Shown here in pieces: positions 4,202-38,826 of a DNA stretch of 53,513 nucleotides. A model generated the notes under the pieces. It was given only the letters and a program-made list of their open reading frames with translations, searched no databases and was not told the DNA's origin. The number at the start of each line of letters is the position of its first letter. Position 1 is the stretch's first letter. The position numbers were made by a program, and so were the translations under genes. The DNA comes from Olsenella sp. An290 (GTDB lineage Bacteria > Actinomycetota > Coriobacteriia > Coriobacteriales > Atopobiaceae): assembly GCF_002159535.1 (NCBI RefSeq), contig NZ_NFIU01000013.1:1-53513 (forward strand), written 5' to 3'.

Positions 4202-4636
4202 ATGGATGCCACCGATCTTGACCTTGCACGTGCCCTGCTCATCGCCAACAAGGAGGCGACGCTCGTCGCCGTCCGTGGCGACGAGGTCATCACCTGCACC
4301 GAGCGCGGCGTAAAGCCCCTCCTCCGCTGGGTCCGCGAGGGCCGCAGCCTCAGCGGCTTCTCCGTGGCCGACAAGGTCGTGGGCAAGGCGCCCGCGCTGC
4401 TCTACGCCATCCTCGGCCCCGACGCGGTGTTCTCCCCCGTCATGTCCTGGACCGGCCGCGCCGTCCTCGTTGCCTCCGGCATTGCGGTGAGCCATGACGC
4501 GCTCGTGCCCCGCATCCAGAACCGCGCCAAGAGCGACCAGTGCCCCATGGATGCCTCGGTCTCGAACGTCTGGGAGCCCTACGAGGCCGCCGACGTCCTC
4601 ACCGAGCGTGCCCGCCAGATGGCGCTGGGCCTCTAG
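4202..4636 (+). CDS. DUF1893 domain protein
   Basis: 144 aa from the ATG at 4202, preceded by AGGAGG at good spacing; the in-frame ATG at 4160 has no such site. The sequence follows the DUF1893 pattern: ALLIANKEATLVAVRGDEVITC, then a region resembling the family's DKVVGKAPALLY and the conserved Cys/Asp-rich end (QCPMDASV near residues 117-124). This is a small single-domain cytoplasmic protein of the family's usual length with no established function. It is monocistronic, closed by the perfect 14-bp terminator at 4657-4693. Upstream lies a short CGTGA/TCACG dyad (4115-4126) that could be an operator, which is untested. Confidence 0.85.
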   Translation: MDATDLDLARALLIANKEATLVAVRGDEVITCTERGVKPLLRWVREGRSLSGFSVADKVVGKAPALLYAILGPDAVFSPVMSWTGRAVLVASGIAVSHDALVPRIQNRAKSDQCPMDASVSNVWEPYEAADVLTERARQMALGL

Positions 4637-4656
4637 CACTCCCCCTACGTACAGCA

Positions 4657-4693
4657 CGCGGCCGAGAAGAACTGTCTTCTCGGCCGCGTTTTT
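4657..4693 (+). terminator. Rho-independent terminator after the DUF1893 gene
   Basis: A perfect 14-bp stem (CGCGGCCGAGAAGA and its complement) encloses an ACTG loop and runs into TTTTTC. The stem contains one copy of the recurring GAGAAGRAC 9-mer. Confidence 0.93.
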
Positions 4694-4736
4694 CTGGCTC
4701 GATGACGTAGTTGCTGCCTGCGTCGCGCACAGCGCG

Positions 4737-28260: not shown

Positions 28261-29838
28261 ATGCCCGGCATCGACGACATCATCGAGCAGGTCCTGGCCG
28301 CGGCGCGCGGGCGACTCGAGCGCGGCGTCGAGACCTCCCGGGCCTACGGCGACGAGCCGATCCTCATGCGCGGCTCCCAGCTGGCGAGCTACCAGCCCGA
28401 GCCCATCCGCCAGATGCGCGCCCTTGCGCGACGCCCCGAGGCGCGCTCCTGGACGGACGCCCGCCTCTTTGTGGAGCAGGCGCGCCTCATGAGCGGCTAC
28501 GAGGACGACTTCCCCTCCTCAGAGCCCCTCCTGAGCTACTTCCCCACCTATGCCGCGATGAGCAACCGCCAGCTCAGGAGCTACTTCACCTGGCGCACGC
28601 ACGTGCGGGCGGGACGGGTCGAGAAGACCTCGACGTCGTATGCCTACGTCTATCTCTACGAGCTCATCAACGGGGTCGGCGCGGAGCCCGGCGAGGAGGC
28701 GTTCCGCGCGATCGAGGCCTTCTGGCAGGCCTACCGAAAGTTCGATTCCGGCCTGGACCGCTACGTCCGCGCATGGCTCGTCGACTACGCGGTCTACCAC
28801 GACCTTGACCCCGCGCTCGCCCTCCCCTACGTCGCCGTCGAGCACGACTGGGCGGTCGCCGTCCTCGCCGAGGCCGAGCGCCGCGCGCTCGAGCTGGCTG
28901 CGCCCCGCAGCCGCCGCCAGGGGCCCGGCGACCTCCCCGTGCCCGAGGGCGAGGCCACGAGGCTCTTTGACGCCCTCGAAGAGCTCTCGACGTACCGCCT
29001 CGCGCACGCGCGGCTCTACCGTGAGCGCCCCGAGGAGCTGCGCGACGTCACCTACCTCGTCTTTGGCCGCCTGGCACGCTACTATCGCTCCAATCGCACG
29101 CAGGGGCTCACCGAGAGCCTCTTCGGCGCGCGACGCGAGATGCCGCACCTCATGTTTGCCTCCGCCGTGTTCTACCCTGGCGAGCGCCATCCCGACGCCA
29201 CCTACGACCTTGCCGGGACGCGCCGCTATGCCTGCCGCGGCGGGCTCTGGACCTGCGACGCCCTTCACGACGGGGGCGCCCGCAGCTCAAAGCTCGGTCA
29301 GGTCCTGCGCGCCGTCGACCGGCAGCTGCGCGTGGCGCTCGACTACCCCCATCAGCTCAAGGAGCGAGGCGACCCCAAGTACCTCGTGAGCCTCGTCGAC
29401 CGCGCGATCGGAGACTACCTCTCCTGGCGGCGCGCCCACGCCCCCGTCCGCGTGGAGATCGACCTCTCCAAGCTCGCGGGCATCCGCGCGGGGGCGGCCC
29501 AGACCCGCGAGGCCCTGCTCGTGGACGAGGAGCGTGAGGACGAGAAGGACCTCGCGCCCGCGCCCGCCACATCCGGGGCCGCGAGCGGGCCGGCGCCCGC
29601 GACGGCCCCCGGCCCGTCCGACCCCGCCGCAGGCGTTGGCCTCCTTCCCGAGGAGCGCGCCCTTCTCGCCGCGCTGCTCGACGCCAAGGAGGCTCCCGCC
29701 GGAACCGACCTGCTCGTCGACTCCATCAACGAGCGGCTCTTTGACCTCGTCGGCGACACCGTGCTCGAGTTTGACGACTCTGGCCGACCCACGATCGTCG
29801 AGGACTACGTCGACGAGGTCCGCTCTATCCTGGGTTGA
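28261..29838 (+). CDS. TerB_N / TerB_C domain protein
   Basis: 525 aa. Residues 60-300 match the TerB_N pattern (LRSYFTWRTHVRAGRVEKTSTSYAYVY followed by LYELING, then a helical region). A Pro/Ala-rich linker (residues about 430-460) leads to the TerB_C domain at about 460-525 (LLPEERALLAALL, LVDSINERLFDLVGDTVLEF, VEDYVDEVRSIL). This architecture is not tellurite resistance proper: it is typically encoded with a DUF2791 P-loop ATPase and a superfamily 2 helicase, both present at 31.8 and 36.4 kb. It is likely the adaptor subunit of that module. The link to yaaA (4 bp) is direct from sequence; the complex is inference. Confidence 0.85.
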   Translation: MPGIDDIIEQVLAAARGRLERGVETSRAYGDEPILMRGSQLASYQPEPIRQMRALARRPEARSWTDARLFVEQARLMSGYEDDFPSSEPLLSYFPTYAAMSNRQLRSYFTWRTHVRAGRVEKTSTSYAYVYLYELINGVGAEPGEEAFRAIEAFWQAYRKFDSGLDRYVRAWLVDYAVYHDLDPALALPYVAVEHDWAVAVLAEAERRALELAAPRSRRQGPGDLPVPEGEATRLFDALEELSTYRLAHARLYRERPEELRDVTYLVFGRLARYYRSNRTQGLTESLFGARREMPHLMFASAVFYPGERHPDATYDLAGTRRYACRGGLWTCDALHDGGARSSKLGQVLRAVDRQLRVALDYPHQLKERGDPKYLVSLVDRAIGDYLSWRRAHAPVRVEIDLSKLAGIRAGAAQTREALLVDEEREDEKDLAPAPATSGAASGPAPATAPGPSDPAAGVGLLPEERALLAALLDAKEAPAGTDLLVDSINERLFDLVGDTVLEFDDSGRPTIVEDYVDEVRSILG

Positions 29839-29986
29839 CGCGCCCTGCGCCCCGCGGGCCGTCGCCCCTGCCGTTCCGCCTTTCGTTCCCCGTGAGCGTT
29901 CTTTTGTTCGCGAGACCTTCAATGATCCATTTTGGGGAATGAAAATGTCTTTCTCGCGCACCAACGGGCCGAAGAAGGGAGAGATT

Positions 29987-30805
29987 GTGCCCAGCACAGA
30001 CGTCGTTGGCAAGAGCGGTCTTCCGAAGCTCGCCTCCCGCCTTGTCACTGCCTACTACCAGAAGGACTACGACGCCATCCTCGCGTACCTCACGCCTGAC
30101 TGCCTGTTCATCGGCGCAGGTTCCGACGTCACCTACGGAGCGCGAAGCCTGCCGCACGTCATCGCTGCCAACGCCGCCATGCCCACCTTCCTCGTGCGCG
30201 ACGCCGAGTTTCACCTCGTCGAGACGAGCTCTCCCAACGAGGCCGTCATCGTGGGCTTCTACACGATCTACTCCGACGCCGACCACCGCATGCTCTCCTC
30301 GGAGCGACAGCGCCTCACCGTCAACTGCCGGTGTCAGAACGGCGCCTGGAAGGCCTACCTCGTCCACGCCTCCAACGAGTGGGGCCCGCTCGACGAGGGC
30401 GTTGCCTTTCCGGTGCGCGTGAGCCGCCAGACGTATCGCTACGTTCAGGACATCCTCCGCGCGAGCCGGAGCCGCGCGGACAGCTCCTCCGAGAGCATCA
30501 CCCTGCCCGTCGAGGGCGGCACCGCCTTTGTGAACCCCGCGCAGATCATCTACGCCGAGGCAAGCGCGAAGAAGGCGCTCCTGCACCTCACGGATCGCAC
30601 CATCACGGTGAAGCTCCTGCTCAGCAACGTGATTGACCTGCTTCCCCAGCAGTTCACGCGCGTGCACCGCAGCTACGTGGTGAACCGCAACCACATCGTG
30701 TCGCTCTCGGGCGGGGAGATCGTCATGTCCAACGGCGACCACATCCCCATCCCCAAGCGCAGGAGGCGCGAGATCGAGCTCGAGCTCTCCCGCAGAGCCG
30801 AGTAG
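29987..30805 (+). CDS. NTF2-like/LytTR transcriptional regulator (paralogue 1)
   Basis: 272 aa from the GTG at 29987, which has AAGGGAG five bases upstream; in-frame ATGs at 29939 and 29945 would add 14-16 residues and have only GGGGA. The N-terminal ~130 residues look like an NTF2/SnoaL ligand-binding fold (SRLVTAYYQKDYDAILAYLTPDC, AVIVGFYTIYSD, CRCQNGAWKAYLVHASNEWG). Residues about 165-268 are a LytTR DNA-binding domain (FVNPAQIIYAEASAKKALLHL, FTRVHRSYVVNRNHIVSL). No receiver domain is present, so it is probably controlled by a small ligand. It follows the TerB gene by 148 bp in an AT-rich gap likely to hold its own promoter. The paralogue is 157 bp downstream. Confidence 0.82.
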   Translation: MPSTDVVGKSGLPKLASRLVTAYYQKDYDAILAYLTPDCLFIGAGSDVTYGARSLPHVIAANAAMPTFLVRDAEFHLVETSSPNEAVIVGFYTIYSDADHRMLSSERQRLTVNCRCQNGAWKAYLVHASNEWGPLDEGVAFPVRVSRQTYRYVQDILRASRSRADSSSESITLPVEGGTAFVNPAQIIYAEASAKKALLHLTDRTITVKLLLSNVIDLLPQQFTRVHRSYVVNRNHIVSLSGGEIVMSNGDHIPIPKRRRREIELELSRRAE

Positions 30806-30962
30806 CCGGATGCCCAAGAAGAGCGCGCTCGCCCATTGGGCGCGGACGCGCGACGGCGCGAAGCCTATACTTCCACCTACCGGACAGGGCCCGGGCACGC
30901 ACGGGCCGCGGCGGCTGCGCAGCTGCGCGGCCGCGCACGAGATGGCCGGAAAGGGGTGAGAC

Positions 30963-31705
30963 ATGGATGCCAGCCTGAGCAGACGGCAGCTCGTCGAGCA
31001 GGTCAGAGACCGCATTCTCGCCTGCCTTGCCCAAGACCGCGCGGGCTTTCTCGACCTGATGGACGAGCAGAGCGTCGTGATCCTGGCGGGGTCGCGGGTC
31101 TACCGCGGGAGAAGCTCCGTTGAGAGATACCCCCCCCCAGCCTAAAGGGCGTGAGAGTGAGCGACGCGACCTTTCGCGCCCTTGACATCGACAAGAGGGA
31201 CGAAGCCGTCATCTTGGGCACCTACCTGCTGAGCGGGCCCTGCGCCGACGGGACCGTTCGGCAGCGCGTCACGGCGGGGCTGCGCCTCGTCGACGGGAGC
31301 TGGAAGATCGACCTCGCCCACTTCTCCAACGAGTGGAGCATGTCCGAGACGGCGGGCGAGAAGGCCCCCGAGGGCACGCGCCGCCTCCAGCTGCGCTCGG
31401 AGGACGGCCTGGTCTTCGTTGACCCCGACGACCTCATCTACGCCGAGTCGGCCGGAAAGCGCTGCGTGCTGCACCTCACGGACCGCACCGTGACGGTCAG
31501 CGCCCTTCTGGGCGAGCTGTGCGACCTCCTCCCCGGGCAGTTCGTCCGGGCGGGCCGGTTCTACACGGTGAACGTGGGCTACGTCCAGAGCGTCGGGCGC
31601 GAGGGGATCGCGTTCACCACAGGGGAGACGATCCCGGTGCCGGCCCGTCGCGCACGGGAGATTCAGGCGGAGATCTCGGCCGCCATCACCCGCCACTTCG
31701 GCTGA
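30963..31705 (+). pseudogene. NTF2-like/LytTR regulator (paralogue 2), out of frame at a C9 tract
   Basis: The first part (ATG 30963, behind AAAGGGG) gives 56 residues of NTF2-like sequence ending VYRGRSSVERY, then the C run, then stop at 31145. The rest (to 31705) is open in the other frame: SDATFRALDIDKRDEAVILGTYLL, a complete LytTR domain (FVDPDDLIYAESAGKRCVLHL, FVRAGRFYTVNVGYVQSV). Ten C residues instead of nine would join both into one 247-residue protein aligning with paralogue 1. A -1 ribosomal slip or transcriptional slippage would do the same. Both halves keep good coding bias, which argues for recent or reversible inactivation rather than decay. A homopolymer sequencing error is the main alternative. 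Confidence 0.8.
31130..31138. repeat. C9 homopolymer inside the second NTF2-LytTR gene
   Basis: Nine consecutive C between codon 56 and the premature stop. C/G runs of 8-10 are classic slipped-strand phase-variation sites. The reading frame is OFF at nine and ON at ten (or seven). Confidence 0.9.
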
Positions 31706-31762
31706 CCGAAGAAGGGCGGCCCCATCACCCCGGCTCGGACGGGACCGTTTCCCTTGAGTCCT

Positions 31763-31792
31763 TTGAGTCAATGCGAACATATGTGCTATACT
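31763..31792 (+). promoter_or_regulatory. ATPase promoter with LexA/SOS-box-like sequence
   Basis: TTGAGT (31763-31768), an 18-bp spacer and TATACT (31787-31792) form a good sigma-70-type promoter 33 bp before the GTG start. The spacer carries CGAACATATGTGCT (31774-31787), a 12/14 match to the Gram-positive LexA consensus CGAACRNRYGTTYC. An operator in the spacer would block polymerase, as at known SOS promoters. Confidence 0.65.
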
Positions 31793-31824
31793 TGCGCTCC
31801 CGAGACAACGTGGAGAGGAGCATC

Positions 31825-33123
31825 GTGAGCGAGGCACCCAAGGTTCCCAAGCGCATAGCGGCGGTCATCATCAACTCGCTCAAGGGCGGCGTGGTCCCGC
31901 GCATCGGGCTTCCCTACGTCACCGTGGGGCGCGAGCGCGAGATTCAGGCGCTCCTGCACGACCTCGACCTCGTGGCGGACGGCGGCGCAAGCTTCCGCTT
32001 CCTCGTGGGCCGCTACGGGGCGGGCAAGAGCTTCCTCCTGCAGACCATCCGCACGCACGCCATGGGCAACGGCTTTGTGGTGGCCGACGCCGACCTCTCC
32101 CCCGAGCGCCGCCTCCAGGGCGGGCAGGGACAGGGCCTCGCCACCTACCGTGAGCTCATCCGCAACCTCTCCACCAAGACGCGGCCCGAGGGCGGGGCGC
32201 TCCAGCTCGTGCTCGACCGCTGGGTGGCCGCGCTGCGCGAGCAGCCGGACCCCGAGGCCGCGCTCGCGACGCAGCTGGCGCCCATCCAGGAGCTCGTCTG
32301 CGGCTTTGACTTCACGCGCGTGCTGCGCCTCTACCGCACGGCCACCCTCGAGGGCAACGAGGAGCTCCGTGCCGGCGTGGTCAAGTGGCTGCGCGGCGAG
32401 TTTCGCACCAAGACCGAGGCGCGCGGCGAGCTGGGCGTCAACGCCTGCATAACGGACGACACCTGGTACGAGTACCTCAAGCTCTTTGCGCAGTTCCTCG
32501 TGGGGGCGGGGTATCAGGGCCTCATCGTGCTCGTGGACGAGCTCGTGAACCTCTACAAGATCCCCAACGCCACCTCGCGCCAGTACAACTACGAGAAGAT
32601 TCTCACCATGTACAACGACACGCTCCAGGGCAAGGCGCGCCACCTCGGCATCATCATGGGTGGCACGCCGCAGTCCGTTGAGGACCGCCGTCGGGGCGTC
32701 TTCTCCTACGAGGCCCTCCGCAGTCGCCTCACGCAGGGACGCTTTGCGAGCACCGGCCTCTCCGACATGCTCGCCCCGGTCATTCACCTGGAGCCCCTCA
32801 GCTACGAGGAGCTGCTCGTGCTCATTGAGAAGCTGGCAGACATCCACGCCGGCTACTTCGGCTACGAGCGCACGCTCACCGAGGCGCAGCTCGTGAGCTT
32901 TCTGCAGGTCGAGTTTGGCCGCGTGGGCGCCGACACCCACCTCACTCCGCGCGAGGTCATCCGCGACTTCATCGAGCTGCTCGACATCGTCTGCCAGAAC
33001 CCGGGGGCAGACGTGGACGCGCTGCTCAGGACCGACGCGTTCTCCGGGGCCGTCGCCGCCGCCCCGGCCGTTGCGGCGGGCGAGAAGGACGTGGATCCCG
33101 CCTTCGCCGAGTTCACGATCTAG
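31825..33123 (+). CDS. BREX-type (DUF2791) P-loop ATPase
   Basis: 432 aa from the GTG at 31825 (AGGAG five bases upstream). Walker A is FLVGRYGAGKSFLLQ (about residues 61-75), Walker B LIVLVDELVNL near 235, and a sensor-like IIMGGTPQSVEDRRRGVFSYEALRSRL follows. The pattern IINSLKGGVVPRIGLPYVTVGREREI at the N-terminus is characteristic of the BrxD/DUF2791 ATP-binding family. In BREX these ATPases act in phage defence; outside BREX they occur with TerB_N proteins and a helicase, as here. The last residues form a variable Ala-rich tail. The stop codon overlaps that of the convergent lipoprotein gene on a CTAG. Confidence 0.88.
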   Translation: MSEAPKVPKRIAAVIINSLKGGVVPRIGLPYVTVGREREIQALLHDLDLVADGGASFRFLVGRYGAGKSFLLQTIRTHAMGNGFVVADADLSPERRLQGGQGQGLATYRELIRNLSTKTRPEGGALQLVLDRWVAALREQPDPEAALATQLAPIQELVCGFDFTRVLRLYRTATLEGNEELRAGVVKWLRGEFRTKTEARGELGVNACITDDTWYEYLKLFAQFLVGAGYQGLIVLVDELVNLYKIPNATSRQYNYEKILTMYNDTLQGKARHLGIIMGGTPQSVEDRRRGVFSYEALRSRLTQGRFASTGLSDMLAPVIHLEPLSYEELLVLIEKLADIHAGYFGYERTLTEAQLVSFLQVEFGRVGADTHLTPREVIRDFIELLDIVCQNPGADVDALLRTDAFSGAVAAAPAVAAGEKDVDPAFAEFTI

Positions 33124-34040
33124 GCGCCGCCGTCGTCATCCCATACCTTCTCGACCACGTCACGCTCGCCCACTACATACGCGGAGTAGATGGGTTCATC
33201 CGAGAAAGCCGCACTGACCTCGAGGTACCGAGGCTCGCCGTCCTCTTCGGGCAGCTCGTAGTAGACGACGCCGTCACCCGTCCACGAGACACAGCAGGGC
33301 CGACCAAAGCGCTCCTCGAATTCGTCCAGGGTCTTTCCGCCCTCGTCGAGAAACGCCGCGGCCTCGCCGACGTCGGAGATGGCGTCACCAGCCTCGTAGC
33401 GCAGCGGGTCGTCGTACACGAGGCGCGTCTCCCACTCCAGGGGATAGTCCAACCGAAGGCGCAGGCCCGTCCCCTCGGGCCACTCCGCCCCACTCGCTTC
33501 GTAGAGCATCGCCGAGTACGCGTCCTCCGACCACACGACGATCCTGGAGACGCCCACCTCCGTTTCGTCGAAGTCGTTCTCGCTCACGAGCGTCATGAAG
33601 CACCAGTAGTTCTCGTCGTCGAGGGCAAACGAGAAGCCTGCCGAGAGCTCGACGCGGCGCCTGCCGTGATCGACACTCACGGACTCCTGGGGCATCGTCA
33701 CCGAATGGGAGTCCAGGTATTCGACGTGGCCGGAGCAGCGCGCCACCAGCTCGTCGGCCTGCGCCTCAAGATCATCGGAGCTCGCCCGGGCCTTGGGCGA
33801 GAAGAGCGCGACGACCGCCCCTCCATCTCCCGTCTCGAGAGCACCGAGAAGACCCTCCGCCGCGTCGAGGCAGGCCTGTCCCCGCGGGCTCACGTACTCT
33901 TCGCCGCTCAGCTCGCTGTGAAGCAGGCGCCAGAGCGTGTCGGCCTGCTTCGCGCACCCCGGACAGACGACGAGCAGGCACGCCCCCAGGGCCACGGCAC
34001 AAAGGCGCCCGATGACGTGCGTCGACGCGTTCCTGCGCAC
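33120..34040 (-). CDS. DUF5104-like lipoprotein
   Basis: 306 aa from the GTG at 34040 behind AGGGGG. The signal sequence ends LLVVCPGCAKQ; the Cys at +1 is preceded by Gly but the lipobox is non-canonical (CPGC). The first half has an NTF2-like helix pattern (QACLDAAEGLLGALETGDGGAVVALFSPKAR) as in DUF5104 proteins. The second half is a beta-rich acidic region of unknown fold. It is on the opposite strand between the ATPase and the membrane LytTR gene, so it is cargo rather than part of the core operon. Surface lipid-anchored location is inferred; function unknown. Confidence 0.7.
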   Translation of the reverse strand: MRRNASTHVIGRLCAVALGACLLVVCPGCAKQADTLWRLLHSELSGEEYVSPRGQACLDAAEGLLGALETGDGGAVVALFSPKARASSDDLEAQADELVARCSGHVEYLDSHSVTMPQESVSVDHGRRRVELSAGFSFALDDENYWCFMTLVSENDFDETEVGVSRIVVWSEDAYSAMLYEASGAEWPEGTGLRLRLDYPLEWETRLVYDDPLRYEAGDAISDVGEAAAFLDEGGKTLDEFEERFGRPCCVSWTGDGVVYYELPEEDGEPRYLEVSAAFSDEPIYSAYVVGERDVVEKVWDDDGGA

Positions 34041-34121
34041 GGGGCCCCCTTTTGGTCGGCGCAATCGGGTAGAGTGTCTCTGACGGAAACCGGACCTCCT
34101 GAAAGTATAGATGAGCTTGTC

Positions 34122-34958
34122 ATGACGGCAGTTGTGGTTCGCAACATCGTGGGCTTCCTCGTGCAGGTCGCGCCGGCGGGGTTTGCCGAGCAGAGCGATG
34201 GCTTCATGTACTATCCCCCGCGCCTCGTGGTGCTCGCGCTGACCAACGCGGTCTTCTTCGGCGCGATGGCCGCCATCATGCGATCCGTGAGGAGGTCGCT
34301 TGCCGCGCGCCTTGCCGACTCCACGTGGTGGCACATGACGGCGCTGCTGCTCACGATCGTGGGCACGCTCCTGCTGGGCGCGTGGCTGCCGCCGCTCGAC
34401 TACGCGGGCATCTACTTCACCCTGTGCTTCGTCATCGCCATCGACTGCGTCGCTCTCGTCGGGTGGCTGCTGCGGACGATTCGCGAGGCGAGCGAGCAGG
34501 CCGAGCACCAGGCGACGCTCGAGCGGGCGCTGCGCCACACCGATCGCGCCCGTGACGAGCTTGCGGGTGAGCTCGCCCGCGCCCACGAGCGCGTGGCGGA
34601 GCTGGAGCGCCGGGGCGCCGCCGATCCCGATGAGACGCCGGTCGTGCTCGCCACCCCCGCCCAGGCGGTGAGCTTCCTGCCCGACGAGGTCTCCTACGTC
34701 GACTCGCTCAACCGGGTGCGCGCCATACACTTTGCCGACGGAGAGTCCATTCAGACGAACATGACGCTCGCGCAGATAGCCGAGGCGCTGCCGAAGGGGC
34801 ACTTCGCCTACTGCCACCGCTCCATCGTGGTGAACCTTCGCCATGTGCGCTCAGTGGGCCCGACCAGTCTCGCACTCAATGACGGAACGGAGCTTCCGGT
34901 GAGTCGTCGTCGTCTTGCCGAGCTGTGGGAGACCCTGAGCGGCATCCAAGCCGAGTAG
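34122..34958 (+). CDS. Membrane-bound LytTR transcriptional regulator
   Basis: 278 aa from the ATG at 34122. Three hydrophobic segments (about residues 28-52, 66-90, 98-122) are followed by a coiled-coil-like linker rich in Glu/Arg/Ala (125-170). A C-terminal LytTR domain follows (VSFLPDEVSYVDSLNRVRAIHF, FAYCHRSIVVNLRHVRSV). The start has no clear ribosome-binding site; a four-codon ORF (ATG 34111) ends in a TGA overlapping this ATG, so translation may be coupled to it. Membrane-tethered LytTR proteins often control surface structures or bacteriocins, and the next gene is a surface protein. An upstream-of-surface-gene ACCGTTCGG (34962) resembles a LytTR half-site. Confidence 0.8.
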   Translation: MTAVVVRNIVGFLVQVAPAGFAEQSDGFMYYPPRLVVLALTNAVFFGAMAAIMRSVRRSLAARLADSTWWHMTALLLTIVGTLLLGAWLPPLDYAGIYFTLCFVIAIDCVALVGWLLRTIREASEQAEHQATLERALRHTDRARDELAGELARAHERVAELERRGAADPDETPVVLATPAQAVSFLPDEVSYVDSLNRVRAIHFADGESIQTNMTLAQIAEALPKGHFAYCHRSIVVNLRHVRSVGPTSLALNDGTELPVSRRRLAELWETLSGIQAE

Positions 34959-35053
34959 GCTACCGTTCGGTCGCCAGAACGACCATTGGGTAAAAGGGCT
35001 GCTCATCTCCCACATAATGGCAGGGTTCCCGACACGAGGAAAGGAATCTGCCT

Positions 35054-36316
35054 ATGAACCTGGCAGGCACCCTGTTCGCCCGTCAGGCCCGCTCACCCAG
35101 GGCCCAGCGTCCCGTGCGCAGCGCCGCCGCCTCGGCTCTTCTCGCGGTGACGCTCGTTGTCACGTCGGCGCTCTTCGCCACCCTCTTTGCGATGCCTCAG
35201 CCGGCGCGCGCCGCAGTGCCGGTGAGCTTCAAGGTGACGGGCGGTCAAGAGGACGTCAACTACCGTCTCACCGCCTACAACGAGCTCTATATCATGACGA
35301 CGACGCTCACCATCTCCACGACCGAGCCGATCGGAGCCGACCACATCGTGGTTGACACCGGGGCGACGGACGACCCCGCCCGCCTGACCTTTGACGGCGT
35401 CACCATCATCAGCGGAGACTGTCCCATCAACATTCTTGTCGCCCCCAACCCCGCCACGTCCACCGACTACCCGGTGCTCGTTGGCAGCGAGGATCTCTAT
35501 AAGCCCTCGACGCTCCAGCTCGTGCAGGATGCCGTCACCACCTATGATGGCTCCGCGGTCACCAGCGACGAGGTCGTGGCCCAGGCAAGCCAGGGCGCTC
35601 GGGACGTGACGGGCGAGCTCGTCGTCTCGTACGCCCCCGAGGGGACCGACGACTTTGCCGAGGGGCTTCCCCGAGACGCCGGGACCTACCGCGTGCGCGT
35701 CTCCCTTCCCCAGCGCCTGGTCGAGGGCGTCTGGTACTCCCCGGCAACGGCTGAGACCACGCTCACCGTCCAGGCCGCAACGCCCACGTTCCAGGTGACC
35801 AACCAGAAGCTCGCGGACGATGCCATCCTGTCTGACGTGCGCGCCCCCGAGACGGGCGCCGGCGTCACGCTTTCCGACGGAACCGTCGAGACGGTGACGG
35901 GAACCCTCACCTGACACGCCTCCTCCGACCTCTCGGACGAGCTCGCGGCTGACACCCCGCTCGCCTCCCTTGCCCAGGACGACTTTGTCACGCTGTGGTG
36001 GAGCTTCGAGCCCGACTCCGCGAACTACGCGAGCCCCGTCACGGGAAGCACCGTCATCGTGCTTGAGGAGGCCGTTGAGCCCACGCCCGACCAGCCCTGC
36101 GATGATCCCGCCGAGAAGCCTGGCAGCCAGACGACGCAGCGTCCTGCTGAGGGGTCCGGCCAGCCCTCCCCCTCTGCGCCCATCGCGTCGAACGCGCAGG
36201 CCGTCCCCGAGACCGGGGACCCCGGCGCCGCTCAGGCGCTGCTTGCCGGCTGCGTGGGCATCGCGCTCTCCGGCATGGGGGCGTTCCTGAGAGGACGTTC
36301 TTCCCGCCGCGCCTAA
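35054..36316 (+). pseudogene. Sortase-anchored surface protein with one in-frame TGA
   Basis: The frame is open for 286 codons from the ATG at 35054 (AGGAAAGGA upstream), then meets TGA at 35912-35914, then continues in the same frame for 133 more codons to 36316. The N-terminus is a long signal peptide ending QPARA. The exported part is Thr/Asp-rich. After the TGA come a Pro-rich wall-spanning stretch, VPETGD (an LPXTG-type sortase motif), a membrane helix and RRA. Without readthrough the product would be secreted without an anchor. Context suggests a former TGG (GTLT-W-HASS). TGA followed by C is a leaky context, so partial readthrough is possible; a nonsense mutation is the simpler reading. 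Confidence 0.78.
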
Positions 36317-36341
36317 CCCCTTGTGAGCGCAAGGAGGCCGA

Positions 36342-36374
36342 GCCGCCCGCATCCACGATGCGGGCGGCTTTTTT
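36342..36374 (+). terminator. Rho-independent terminator after the surface-protein gene
   Basis: A perfect 11-bp stem GCCGCCCGCAT / ATGCGGGCGGC with a CCACG loop is followed by TTTTTT. It isolates the surface gene from the helicase promoter that starts 22 bp later. Confidence 0.93.
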
Positions 36375-36395
36375 GGCAAGCGCCGACCCCAACCC

Positions 36396-36424
36396 TTGCA
36401 TTATGAAACATCTGTTCGTATACT
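36396..36424 (+). promoter_or_regulatory. Helicase promoter with LexA/SOS box
   Basis: TTGCAT (36396-36401), a 17-bp spacer and TATACT (36419-36424). The spacer contains GAAACATCTGTTCG (36405-36418); its complement CGAACAGATGTTTC fits the Bacillus LexA consensus CGAACRNRYGTTYC at every position. The downstream bases (TATACTTGGCCTC) also resemble those of the ATPase promoter (TATACTTGCGCTC), which supports joint control. Confidence 0.75.
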
Positions 36425-36447
36425 TGGCCTCGAGGAGAGGGGGAGGC

Positions 36448-38826
36448 ATGGGCGTCTTCGACCGATACGCGCCGTTTGTGCAGGACTTCATCTACGCGCA
36501 CGAGTGGGAGAGCCTGCGCGGGATCCAGGTTGCCGCAGGCGAGGCCATCTTCGACACGGACGACCACGTACTCCTGTGCGCCTCCACGGCGTCGGGCAAG
36601 ACCGAGGCGGCCTTCTTTCCCATCCTCACCGAGTTCTGGGAGGACCCTCCCTCCTCCGTGGGCGCCCTTTACATCGGACCCACCAAGGCGCTCATCAACG
36701 ACCAGTTCTATCGTCTGACCGACCTCTGCGAGGAGGCGGGAATCGCCGTCTGGCACTGGCACGGGGATGTCTCCTCCTCGCACAAGGCCAAGCTCATGAA
36801 GCGCCCCTCAGGCATCCTGCAGATTACGCCGGAGTCCCTCGAGGCCATGCTCATGCGCCGCCACGCTGCCGTCTCGAGGCTCTTCTGCGACCTTCGCTAC
36901 GTGGTCATAGACGAGGTCCACGCGCTCCTGCGCCAGGACCGCGGCGGCCAGTGCCTCTGCCTCATCGAGCGCCTGGCACGACTGGCGGGCGTGCGGCCGC
37001 GGCGCATCGGCCTCTCCGCCACCATTGGGGACCCAAAGGCCGTGGGCGCGTTTCTCGCCGCGGGCACCGGGCGCAACACCGTCATCCCCCGCGTGGAGGA
37101 GCCGCCGCGCACCTGGCGCATCTCGATGGAGCACTTCTACAACACCGACCCGCAGGCCGACGAGTCCGAAAACCAGACAACGAGAAATGTGGTCGAGGCA
37201 GACGTCGTCTCGCTGGAGCCCCAGGAAACCTCGCCAGAGGACCAGGCGCTATCGCCGCGCGCAGCTCTGCAGCCCGAAGGGCAGGGCTGTTTGAGCACGG
37301 CGGTAGTCCCCGGCCCTCCCGAGGCCCCCACGGACCTGGCGCCCGCGAACGCCGACCCGGGCATCGGCTACATCTTCGAGCACACGCGCGGCCGCAAGTG
37401 CCTGATCTTCTCCAACTCCCGCGAGGAGGCGGAGGAGGTCTGCACGACCCTGCGCTCATACTGCGAGTTCAACGGGGAGCCCGACCGCTTCCTCATCCAC
37501 CACGGCAACCTCTCGGCGGCCATCCGCGAGAGCGCCGAGGAGCAGATGCGCGACGACGCCGCGGACGTCAGCATCGTGGCCACCTCAACGCTCGAGCTCG
37601 GCGTGGACGTCGGGCGCCTCGAGCGCGCGTTTCAGATTGACGCCCCGTTCACGGTCTCGAGCTTCCTGCAGCGCATGGGTCGCACCGGCCGGCGCGAGGC
37701 GCCCCCCGAGATGTGGTTCGTCATGCGAGAGGAGCAGGCGGAGGCGCGCACGCTGCTTCCGGAGACCATTCCCTGGAAGCTCCTTCAGGGCATCGCCCTC
37801 ATCCAGCTCTACCGAGAGGAGCGCTGGGTGGAGCCCCCGCGGCTCGATCGGCTGCCCTACAGCCTGCTCTGCCATCAGACGCTCGCCACCCTCGCCTCGG
37901 AGGGGGAGCTCTCCCCCGCCCAGCTCGCAAGCCGCGTCCTTACGCTCACCTACTTCCATCGCGTCACCGCAGATGACTTCCGCGAGCTCCTGCGGCACCT
38001 CATCCGCAACGACTTCGTCGAGCAGACCGAGACGGGCGGCCTCATCGTGGGTCTTGCCGGGGAGCGCGTCACGAGCTCCTACAAGTTCTTCGCCGTGTTC
38101 CAGGAAAACGTCGAGTATGCGGTCCGCTCCGGCTCCGAGGAGATCGGGACGCTCTGCGCGCCGCCGCCGCCCGGGGAGAAGGTCGCCATCGCAGGTCACG
38201 TCTGGATCGTCGACGAGGTGGACCACGAGCGCCACCTGCTCTACGTGACGCAGGTCAAGGGCAAGGTGCCCGCATACTTTGGCGAGGTCGCGGGGGACGT
38301 GAGCACCCGCGTCCTCGAACGCATGCGCCGCGTGCTGGAGGAGCACGCGGCCTACCCCTACCTCATGCCCCACGCCCGCGCGCGCCTTCGGCAGGCGCGC
38401 CACGTGGCCAGGTCCTCCTGCCTCACGGACGGCCCCCTCATCTGCCTGGGAGAAAACAGCAGGGAACAGACCATGTGGTGCCTGCTGCCGTGGCTTGGGA
38501 GCTACGCCTTTCTCGCCCTTGAGCGCCTCATCAAGATCAAGTGCGCCGACGAGCTGGGGATCAAGGCCTTCAGCTCGTCGCGGCCCTATTTCATCACCTT
38601 TGTGATGAGGGCGGACGAGAGGGCGTTCTTCTCGGTGCTGTGTGACGCCGCCGAGCGGCTGGGGGACCCCAACGAGCTCCTCTATCCCGCCGAGATCCCC
38701 TATTTCGAGAAGTACGACGAGCTGGTGCCGGAGAGCCTCATCCGCAAGGGCTTTGCCGAGGGCGTGCTCGACGTCGCAGGCATGAAGGCCCGCGTGGCCG
38801 AGTGGGGACGTCGCGCCCTCCCCTAG
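36448..38826 (+). CDS. DEVH-box superfamily 2 helicase of the TerB/ATPase module
   Basis: 792 aa from the ATG at 36448 (GGGGGAGG upstream). Helicase motifs are in order: I ASTASGKTEAAFFP (about 48-61), Ia GPTKALINDQ, II VVIDEVHALL (about 154), III GLSATIG, IV CLIFSNSREEAEE, V STLELGVDVG, VI QRMGRTGRRE. Between motifs III and IV lies a 70-residue low-complexity Pro/Glu-rich insertion (about 240-310) that looks lineage-specific. The C-terminal 330 residues include a winged-helix-like part (LLRHLIRNDFVEQTETGGL) as in Lhr-type helicases. It has its own SOS-type promoter. Action on DNA during damage or phage attack is inferred from family and partners. Confidence 0.9.
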   Translation: MGVFDRYAPFVQDFIYAHEWESLRGIQVAAGEAIFDTDDHVLLCASTASGKTEAAFFPILTEFWEDPPSSVGALYIGPTKALINDQFYRLTDLCEEAGIAVWHWHGDVSSSHKAKLMKRPSGILQITPESLEAMLMRRHAAVSRLFCDLRYVVIDEVHALLRQDRGGQCLCLIERLARLAGVRPRRIGLSATIGDPKAVGAFLAAGTGRNTVIPRVEEPPRTWRISMEHFYNTDPQADESENQTTRNVVEADVVSLEPQETSPEDQALSPRAALQPEGQGCLSTAVVPGPPEAPTDLAPANADPGIGYIFEHTRGRKCLIFSNSREEAEEVCTTLRSYCEFNGEPDRFLIHHGNLSAAIRESAEEQMRDDAADVSIVATSTLELGVDVGRLERAFQIDAPFTVSSFLQRMGRTGRREAPPEMWFVMREEQAEARTLLPETIPWKLLQGIALIQLYREERWVEPPRLDRLPYSLLCHQTLATLASEGELSPAQLASRVLTLTYFHRVTADDFRELLRHLIRNDFVEQTETGGLIVGLAGERVTSSYKFFAVFQENVEYAVRSGSEEIGTLCAPPPPGEKVAIAGHVWIVDEVDHERHLLYVTQVKGKVPAYFGEVAGDVSTRVLERMRRVLEEHAAYPYLMPHARARLRQARHVARSSCLTDGPLICLGENSREQTMWCLLPWLGSYAFLALERLIKIKCADELGIKAFSSSRPYFITFVMRADERAFFSVLCDAAERLGDPNELLYPAEIPYFEKYDELVPESLIRKGFAEGVLDVAGMKARVAEWGRRALP

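Follow-up and report, generated by a model that had tools for sequence, protein, structure and literature searches.

A frame-breaking C9 tract in a LytTR regulator gene of Olsenella sp. An290, and C/G runs at the same gene in related genomes

Does a run of nine cytosines inside a regulator gene of Olsenella sp. An290 act as a switch, or does it mark a gene which is being lost? A sequence-only reading of the window, i.e. the whole stretch of 53,513 nucleotides analysed here (bases 1-53513 of contig 5; the draft genome measures 2.15 Mb in 42 contigs and is 97% complete), had proposed that the run turns the regulator ON and OFF. The gene is one of three LytTR genes, for which the labels LYT1, LYT2 and LYT3 were coined in this analysis. 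The interpretation tentatively favoured, with a probability of roughly 0.45, is that LYT2 is an unstable and probably phase-variable regulator with recurrent C/G runs, as comparison with related genomes suggests.

A split regulator gene in the Shango locus

The C9 homopolymer, read directly at positions 31130-31138 of the forward strand with an A on either side, breaks the reading frame of LYT2. The 5' ORF (30963-31145, forward strand, 60 codons), which encodes the N-terminal part of a probable NTF2-like domain, starts at ATG 30963 behind a good Shine-Dalgarno sequence (-12.3 kcal/mol) and stops at TAA 31143-31145, just past the tract. The 3' frame (31124-31705, forward strand), encoding the remaining sensor domain and the LytTR DNA-binding domain, shares 52-64% identity with orthologues. 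The length of the C9 run sets the reading frame, as in slipped-strand phase-variable genes, and C counts of 1 modulo 3 join the two frames into 247 residues, a figure obtained by coordinate arithmetic with no joined sequence built. The sequence-only reading was accurate on these points: the tract splits a regulator gene with exactly these coordinates and frames, and its claim that one added C restores 247 residues agrees with the arithmetic and with the alignment of the 3' part to the intact LYT1 (44% in the LytTR part, 38% in the part preceding it).

The identity of the product as a LytTR regulator was likewise borne out by profile and structure matches, with an NTF2-like sensor being probable. 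The 3' frame matches LytTR (PF04397, 2.9e-11) over profile positions 2-95 of 98, with 43.9 bits against a cut-off of 22.6, and no Pfam match was found in the 60-residue 5' piece. LYT1 (29945-30805, forward strand), an intact paralogous NTF2-like/LytTR regulator, passes the Pfam cut-offs for LytTR (PF04397, 6.7e-17) and, barely, for DUF4440 and SnoaL_3 (PF14534, PF13474), both members of the NTF2-like superfamily. In the four LYT2 orthologues scanned, LytTR was above its cut-off and DUF4440 below. The structure predicted for one orthologue (L078) has a mean pLDDT of 63, with the N-terminal 62 residues mostly under 50; it matches the LytTR structures 3d6w and 4g4k, and NTF2-like proteins weakly, in the low-confidence region. 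The tract site falls in a low-confidence stretch of this model, with the sensor's helices on one side and its beta-sheet on the other; the C9 allele would lose the start of the sensor and keep the LytTR part.

LYT2 lies within the gene set of Shango, whose three members are all present according to three PADLOC models and, in this genome, are spread over 28261-38826 with the three LytTR regulators and other genes interspersed. SngA (28261-29838; TerB_N/TerB_C, PF13208 and PF15615; PDLC03958, 1.4e-74) is followed by LYT1 and LYT2, then by the BrxC/D-like ATPase SngB (31825-33123; PDLC03959, 3.7e-174), LYT3 (34122-34958; PF04397, 4.2e-16) and the helicase SngC (36358-38826; PDLC03960, 6.9e-265), all on the forward strand. 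A putative surface protein (35054-36316), described in the sequence-only reading as sitting next to the regulator, is not its immediate neighbour: sngB, a reverse-strand DUF5104 gene and LYT3 intervene. Across the genus, LYT2 directly precedes sngB in all nine loci, LYT1 precedes LYT2 in six of the nine, and SngA is found upstream in six, contig ends being nearby in L077 and L078 and L079 having none within 8 kb. The sngB gene is near-core, which is unusual for a defence system: it occurs in 29 of the 31 genus genomes and in all 25 high-quality ones. No match to SngA, SngB or SngC was detected near the LYT1-LYT2 pair of L082 (8 kb on each side) or that of L081 (8 kb upstream, about 0.2 kb downstream); the pair can therefore occur outside Shango loci.

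A LexA-like box, CGAACATATGTGCTA, is located at 31774-31788 of the forward strand, before sngB and downstream of LYT2, and its core GAACANNTGTGC was present in all nine loci compared, the window included. The lexA gene itself is preceded, at a distance of about 100 nt, by two looser matches. Searched genome-wide with two mismatches, the box pattern gave 13 matches against 34 for a backward control, i.e. no enrichment, and what support it has comes only from where it lies relative to lexA and from the conserved core in front of sngB, the latter suggesting that sngB is under DNA-damage control. Membership of LYT2 in the SOS (LexA) regulon was considered and found no support: the one box detected near the gene, at 31774, follows it and none was found in the LYT2 promoter, so that the earlier description of the regulator as part of an SOS-controlled module needs amending. 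In L078, repeated GTTCTTCTCG units were observed at 4580-4725, in the stretch that separates LYT2 from the LexA-like box ahead of sngB.

Age of the break, chance and mismatch repair

Orthologues of LYT2 were recovered from nine of the 31 genus genomes, window included, and from two of the 43 genomes of Collinsella, the genus of L082; a search of 140 family genomes (E 1e-30) found no further one, and the records with LYT2 relatives belong to Olsenella, Collinsella or Atopobiaceae. At the position of the tract the other ten orthologues encode a [W/S]P-x-NPPG stretch in which the longest C/G run is 3-5; a run above 5 around the site was found in none of the ten. This count rules out that the C run is conserved at its codon, a point which the sequence-only reading had suggested checking in orthologues. 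The same reading had held that a site without a repeat in all relatives, together with a one-off frameshift, would speak against a switch: the former half is what the relatives display, and the one-off frameshift is the other half. The tract originated in the lineage of the window, within a stretch nearly invariant elsewhere. None of the relatives in the 31 genus genomes exceeds 64% protein identity, and no second strain with the same site was found in IMG/VR or in plasmids.

Both halves of the gene depart from neutrality. Codon models in which the ratio for the window branch was free, shared or neutral were fitted to the two parts of LYT2 and to LYT1, and neutrality was rejected for the 46 codons of the 5' part (-1050.5 vs -1093.1, lnL difference 42.6) as well as for the 176 codons of the 3' part (-3361.9 vs -3393.2, lnL difference 31.2). 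As the window branch is saturated, with lengths ranging from 19 to 105, and each model was optimised from a single start with no more than 60 iterations, use is made of the rejection of neutrality and not of the dN/dS ratios. Matches covering less than 60% of the query and LYT1 matches below 50% identity were dropped from the distances and the codon model, and frames with stops from the latter. With both pieces open and both rejecting neutral evolution on the window lineage, the earlier statement that the halves are otherwise undamaged was upheld, and the break must be recent or intermittent. The LYT2 of the window is, at the same time, the most diverged copy, with a mean distance of 0.53 for the 5' part (0.31-0.43 in the others) and 0.40 for the 3' part (0.25-0.36), whereas the window copies of LYT1 and SngA exceed their relatives in divergence by a small margin only. 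The higher divergence of LYT2 suggests relaxed constraint. The frame was thus kept over much of the gene's past, perhaps with its constraint weakened.

The occurrence of a C9 run is in itself unsurprising from base composition, because shuffled sequences yield it often. Dinucleotide shuffles led to 1.46 expected C9 per window, so that no statistical excess over base composition was found; a Markov simulation gave 0.8 runs of at least nine per window, and codon shuffles of 11.9 kb of coding DNA contained a run of at least nine in 34% of 500 trials. Long runs are, in fact, scarce: the window has seven C/G runs of at least six against 43.6 expected, and one of at least seven, the C9 itself, against 12.2. 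The C9 is an exception in a genome depleted of long runs, with no significant excess. The whole 2.15-Mb genome holds five C/G runs of at least nine, of which the C9 is the only intragenic one, the other four being placed between genes by ORFs read by eye, with neither a gene caller nor a family search. A crude survey of 30 genomes of the genus, with one C9-like tract taken from each, placed 12 tracts in a coding-like stop-to-stop frame, six at a frame edge and 12 in none. Judged by this survey, which is too coarse for further use, intragenic tracts in the genus are not rare. As a separate observation, a C10 in the genome of the window (L006, 2151-2160) lies near the 5' side of a Wzz-type chain-length-like gene, recognised by eye, and is another candidate for tract-controlled surface expression.

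Repair of slippage in these bacteria is probably poor. MutS_I (PF01624) was matched in none of the 31 genus genomes (76-99% complete), the positive control being matched in 11 of 14 well-known genomes, and the genus seems to lack canonical mismatch repair. NucS_C gave no more than a sub-threshold match in the genome of the window, and NucS is reported to leave one- or two-base indels unrepaired in M. smegmatis (PMC11551767). Slippage at the C9 should consequently go largely uncorrected, so that switching and accidental frameshifts are both likely.

C/G runs and frameshifts in related genomes

Runs of at least nine C or G were found in LYT2 or the 400 nt upstream of it in four of 11 loci, at four different positions. 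In the window the C9 is coding; in Olsenella An733 (L076) a G10 ends 4 nt before the likely LYT2 start codon; in L077 a C10 lies at -245 and in L081 a C11 at -125 from the gene. The three species with upstream tracts of at least nine have an open LYT2 frame. Four such runs fell in the 12.7 kb of LYT2 regions of the 11 loci and one in the 173.5 kb of flanks (P 1e-4), and three of four tracts still fell in 8.7% of the DNA after exclusion of the window tract and the window flanks (P 0.0025). The three upstream tracts of the ten other genomes compare with 0.077 expected under a uniform distribution (P 7e-5) and with 0.22 expected if all tracts of each genome were intergenic (P 0.0015); the expected counts derive from whole-genome 9-mer positions, an upper bound on tracts, and from an assumed intergenic share of 12%, and matches below 44% identity were dropped as paralogues. 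Among the 29 genomes with sngB, a run of at least nine within 1.5 kb of this gene occurred in three of nine with LYT2 and in none of the 20 others (P 0.023). As the distance limits, the 400-nt upstream one included, were set after the tracts had been seen, the enrichment P values are post hoc and serve as guides only. The upstream tract also varies in length: in two close Collinsella whose records share 96% identity across 507 columns, one has C11 where the other has C6.

Frameshifts recur as well. They affect five of 22 LytTR genes (LYT1 in one of eight, LYT2 in three of 11, LYT3 in one of three) and none of 34 neighbouring genes (P 0.007), namely six HtpG, six YaaA, six SngA, nine SngB and seven SngC, some of them cut by contig or locus ends; P becomes 0.018 without the window gene, 0.020 without L082 and 0.05 without both. 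In the LYT2 of G025 (L084) a short G run within the LytTR domain carries an additional base. That of L082 lacks one base about 12 codons past the start used by L081, as seen in the alignment and not flagged by the script; an upstream GTG frame there runs into LYT2, which may be translated despite the missing base. LYT1 is frameshifted in An733 (L076) and LYT3 in SW781 (L075). The LYT2 of G026 (L083), with no in-frame start before the first conserved residues, was left out of the frameshift count, and in An733 (L076, 11251-12190) LYT3 seemingly lacks the middle of the LytTR domain through an in-frame deletion. No long homopolymer was found at the breaks outside the window (LYT2 in L084 and L082, LYT1 in L076, LYT3 in L075), and for this reason decay fits them as well as switching does.

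Switching, decay or artefact

LYT2 looks switch-prone, given that in several related species this gene has comparable slippery runs or minor breaks. The part of the ON/OFF proposal which gains from these comparisons is slippage at LYT2, through the recurrence of tracts in other species and the lack of MutS_I matches; the part which suffers is conservation, the tract being found at that codon in the window alone. Much of this evidence is also explained by a dispensable regulator being lost repeatedly, which is the main rival: the accessory gene would be decaying again and again, the break would be a fixed and recent loss, and the C9 would not be a switch. This is a doubtful explanation but a substantial one. 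The breaks outside long homopolymers, the startless LYT2 of L083, the in-frame loss in LYT3 of L076, the sparse presence of the gene in the genus, the faster divergence of the window copy and the absence of the tract at this codon elsewhere are all what decay would leave behind. It sits poorly with a LYT2 that has a single lesion and a window branch for which neutrality is rejected, and with tracts of at least nine upstream of an open LYT2 in three other species.

Long homopolymers are common sites of indel errors, and in a draft genome of 42 contigs the true tract could be of another length, leaving LYT2 open. Such an error is improbable: SngA, SngB and SngC match their profiles nearly end to end and relatives align over the whole length, so that no other break is seen in the locus, and a misread tract would still be a slippery C run of similar length. 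A working gene in two pieces is very unlikely. In that case a LytTR protein, with or without sensor, would arise by ribosome or polymerase slippage or by restart at the in-frame GTG 31157, 7 nt before which a possible restart signal, AAAGGG (31144-31149; whole element 31144-31159, forward strand), overlaps the stop of the 5' ORF with -7.5 kcal/mol; eight orthologues have no ATG, GTG or TTG at this position. Nearby genes contain 221 internal start-like codons, of which 8% score equally well, and restart at this GTG is therefore possible; moreover, a break inside the sensor domain would hardly give two folding pieces, and the relatives display no such split.

Under the favoured interpretation of an unstable, phase-variable regulator, LYT2 would be an accessory regulator of the LytTR type, probably with an NTF2-like sensor, and its output would be repeatedly destabilised by short C/G runs, located inside the gene in the window and, in three relatives, in its leader or next to its start codon. 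The C9 allele of the assembly would be the frame-broken OFF state, yielding a 60-residue fragment and perhaps also a weakly restarted LytTR fragment lacking the first sensor part. With MutS seemingly missing from the genus, single-C gains and losses would go unrepaired, and sub-populations with joined frames (ON) would be expected, provided that slippage takes place in living cells and is reversible. ON cells would alter transcription at LytTR-bound promoters, a regulon whose likeliest members are the linked Shango locus and LYT3, and from which a benefit might be drawn. A broader version, in which several species have convergently placed C/G tracts at different positions (coding, beside the start, leader) of one contingency locus beside the near-core sngB, with a fraction of cells stochastically changing expression of the locus, is rather unlikely.

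Known systems offer partial parallels. In bvgS of Bordetella pertussis, mixed alleles of a poly-C tract (C6/C7) in a sensor kinase gene have been demonstrated (PMC1891110); there, as would be the case here, a one-base change in a C run of a regulatory gene truncates the regulator and alters a regulon, but LYT2 encodes a LytTR protein without kinase, and its C9 is a single assembled allele. In espR of Mycobacterium tuberculosis, a G7 tract 144 bp upstream tunes translation and varies across 26,903 isolates (PMC11898584). Homopolymer indels at this actinobacterial transcription-regulator gene are comparable with the tracts upstream of LYT2 in relatives, whereas the window C9 is intragenic and known from one assembly. 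The anti-phage system Shango (SngABC) is described as consisting of genes for a TerB-like protein, an ATPase and a helicase (PMC10250203), which are found in the same order around LYT2; in contrast to that description, the genes are here separated by LytTR regulators and others, a LexA-like box precedes sngB, and sngB is near-core. A literature search for homopolymeric-tract phase variation in Collinsella found no such work, and among the matches listed by a further search none named Collinsella; articles on Olsenella phase variation included none on such switching as far as titles and the opening of abstracts indicate, and a search combining LytTR and SnoaL found nothing.

If the favoured interpretation is true, these gut bacteria, apparently without MutS, would switch a set of genes in a subset of cells by means of slippery runs. 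This would parallel the known regulators of the pertussis and tuberculosis bacteria, with LYT2 sitting in a locus related to phage defence.
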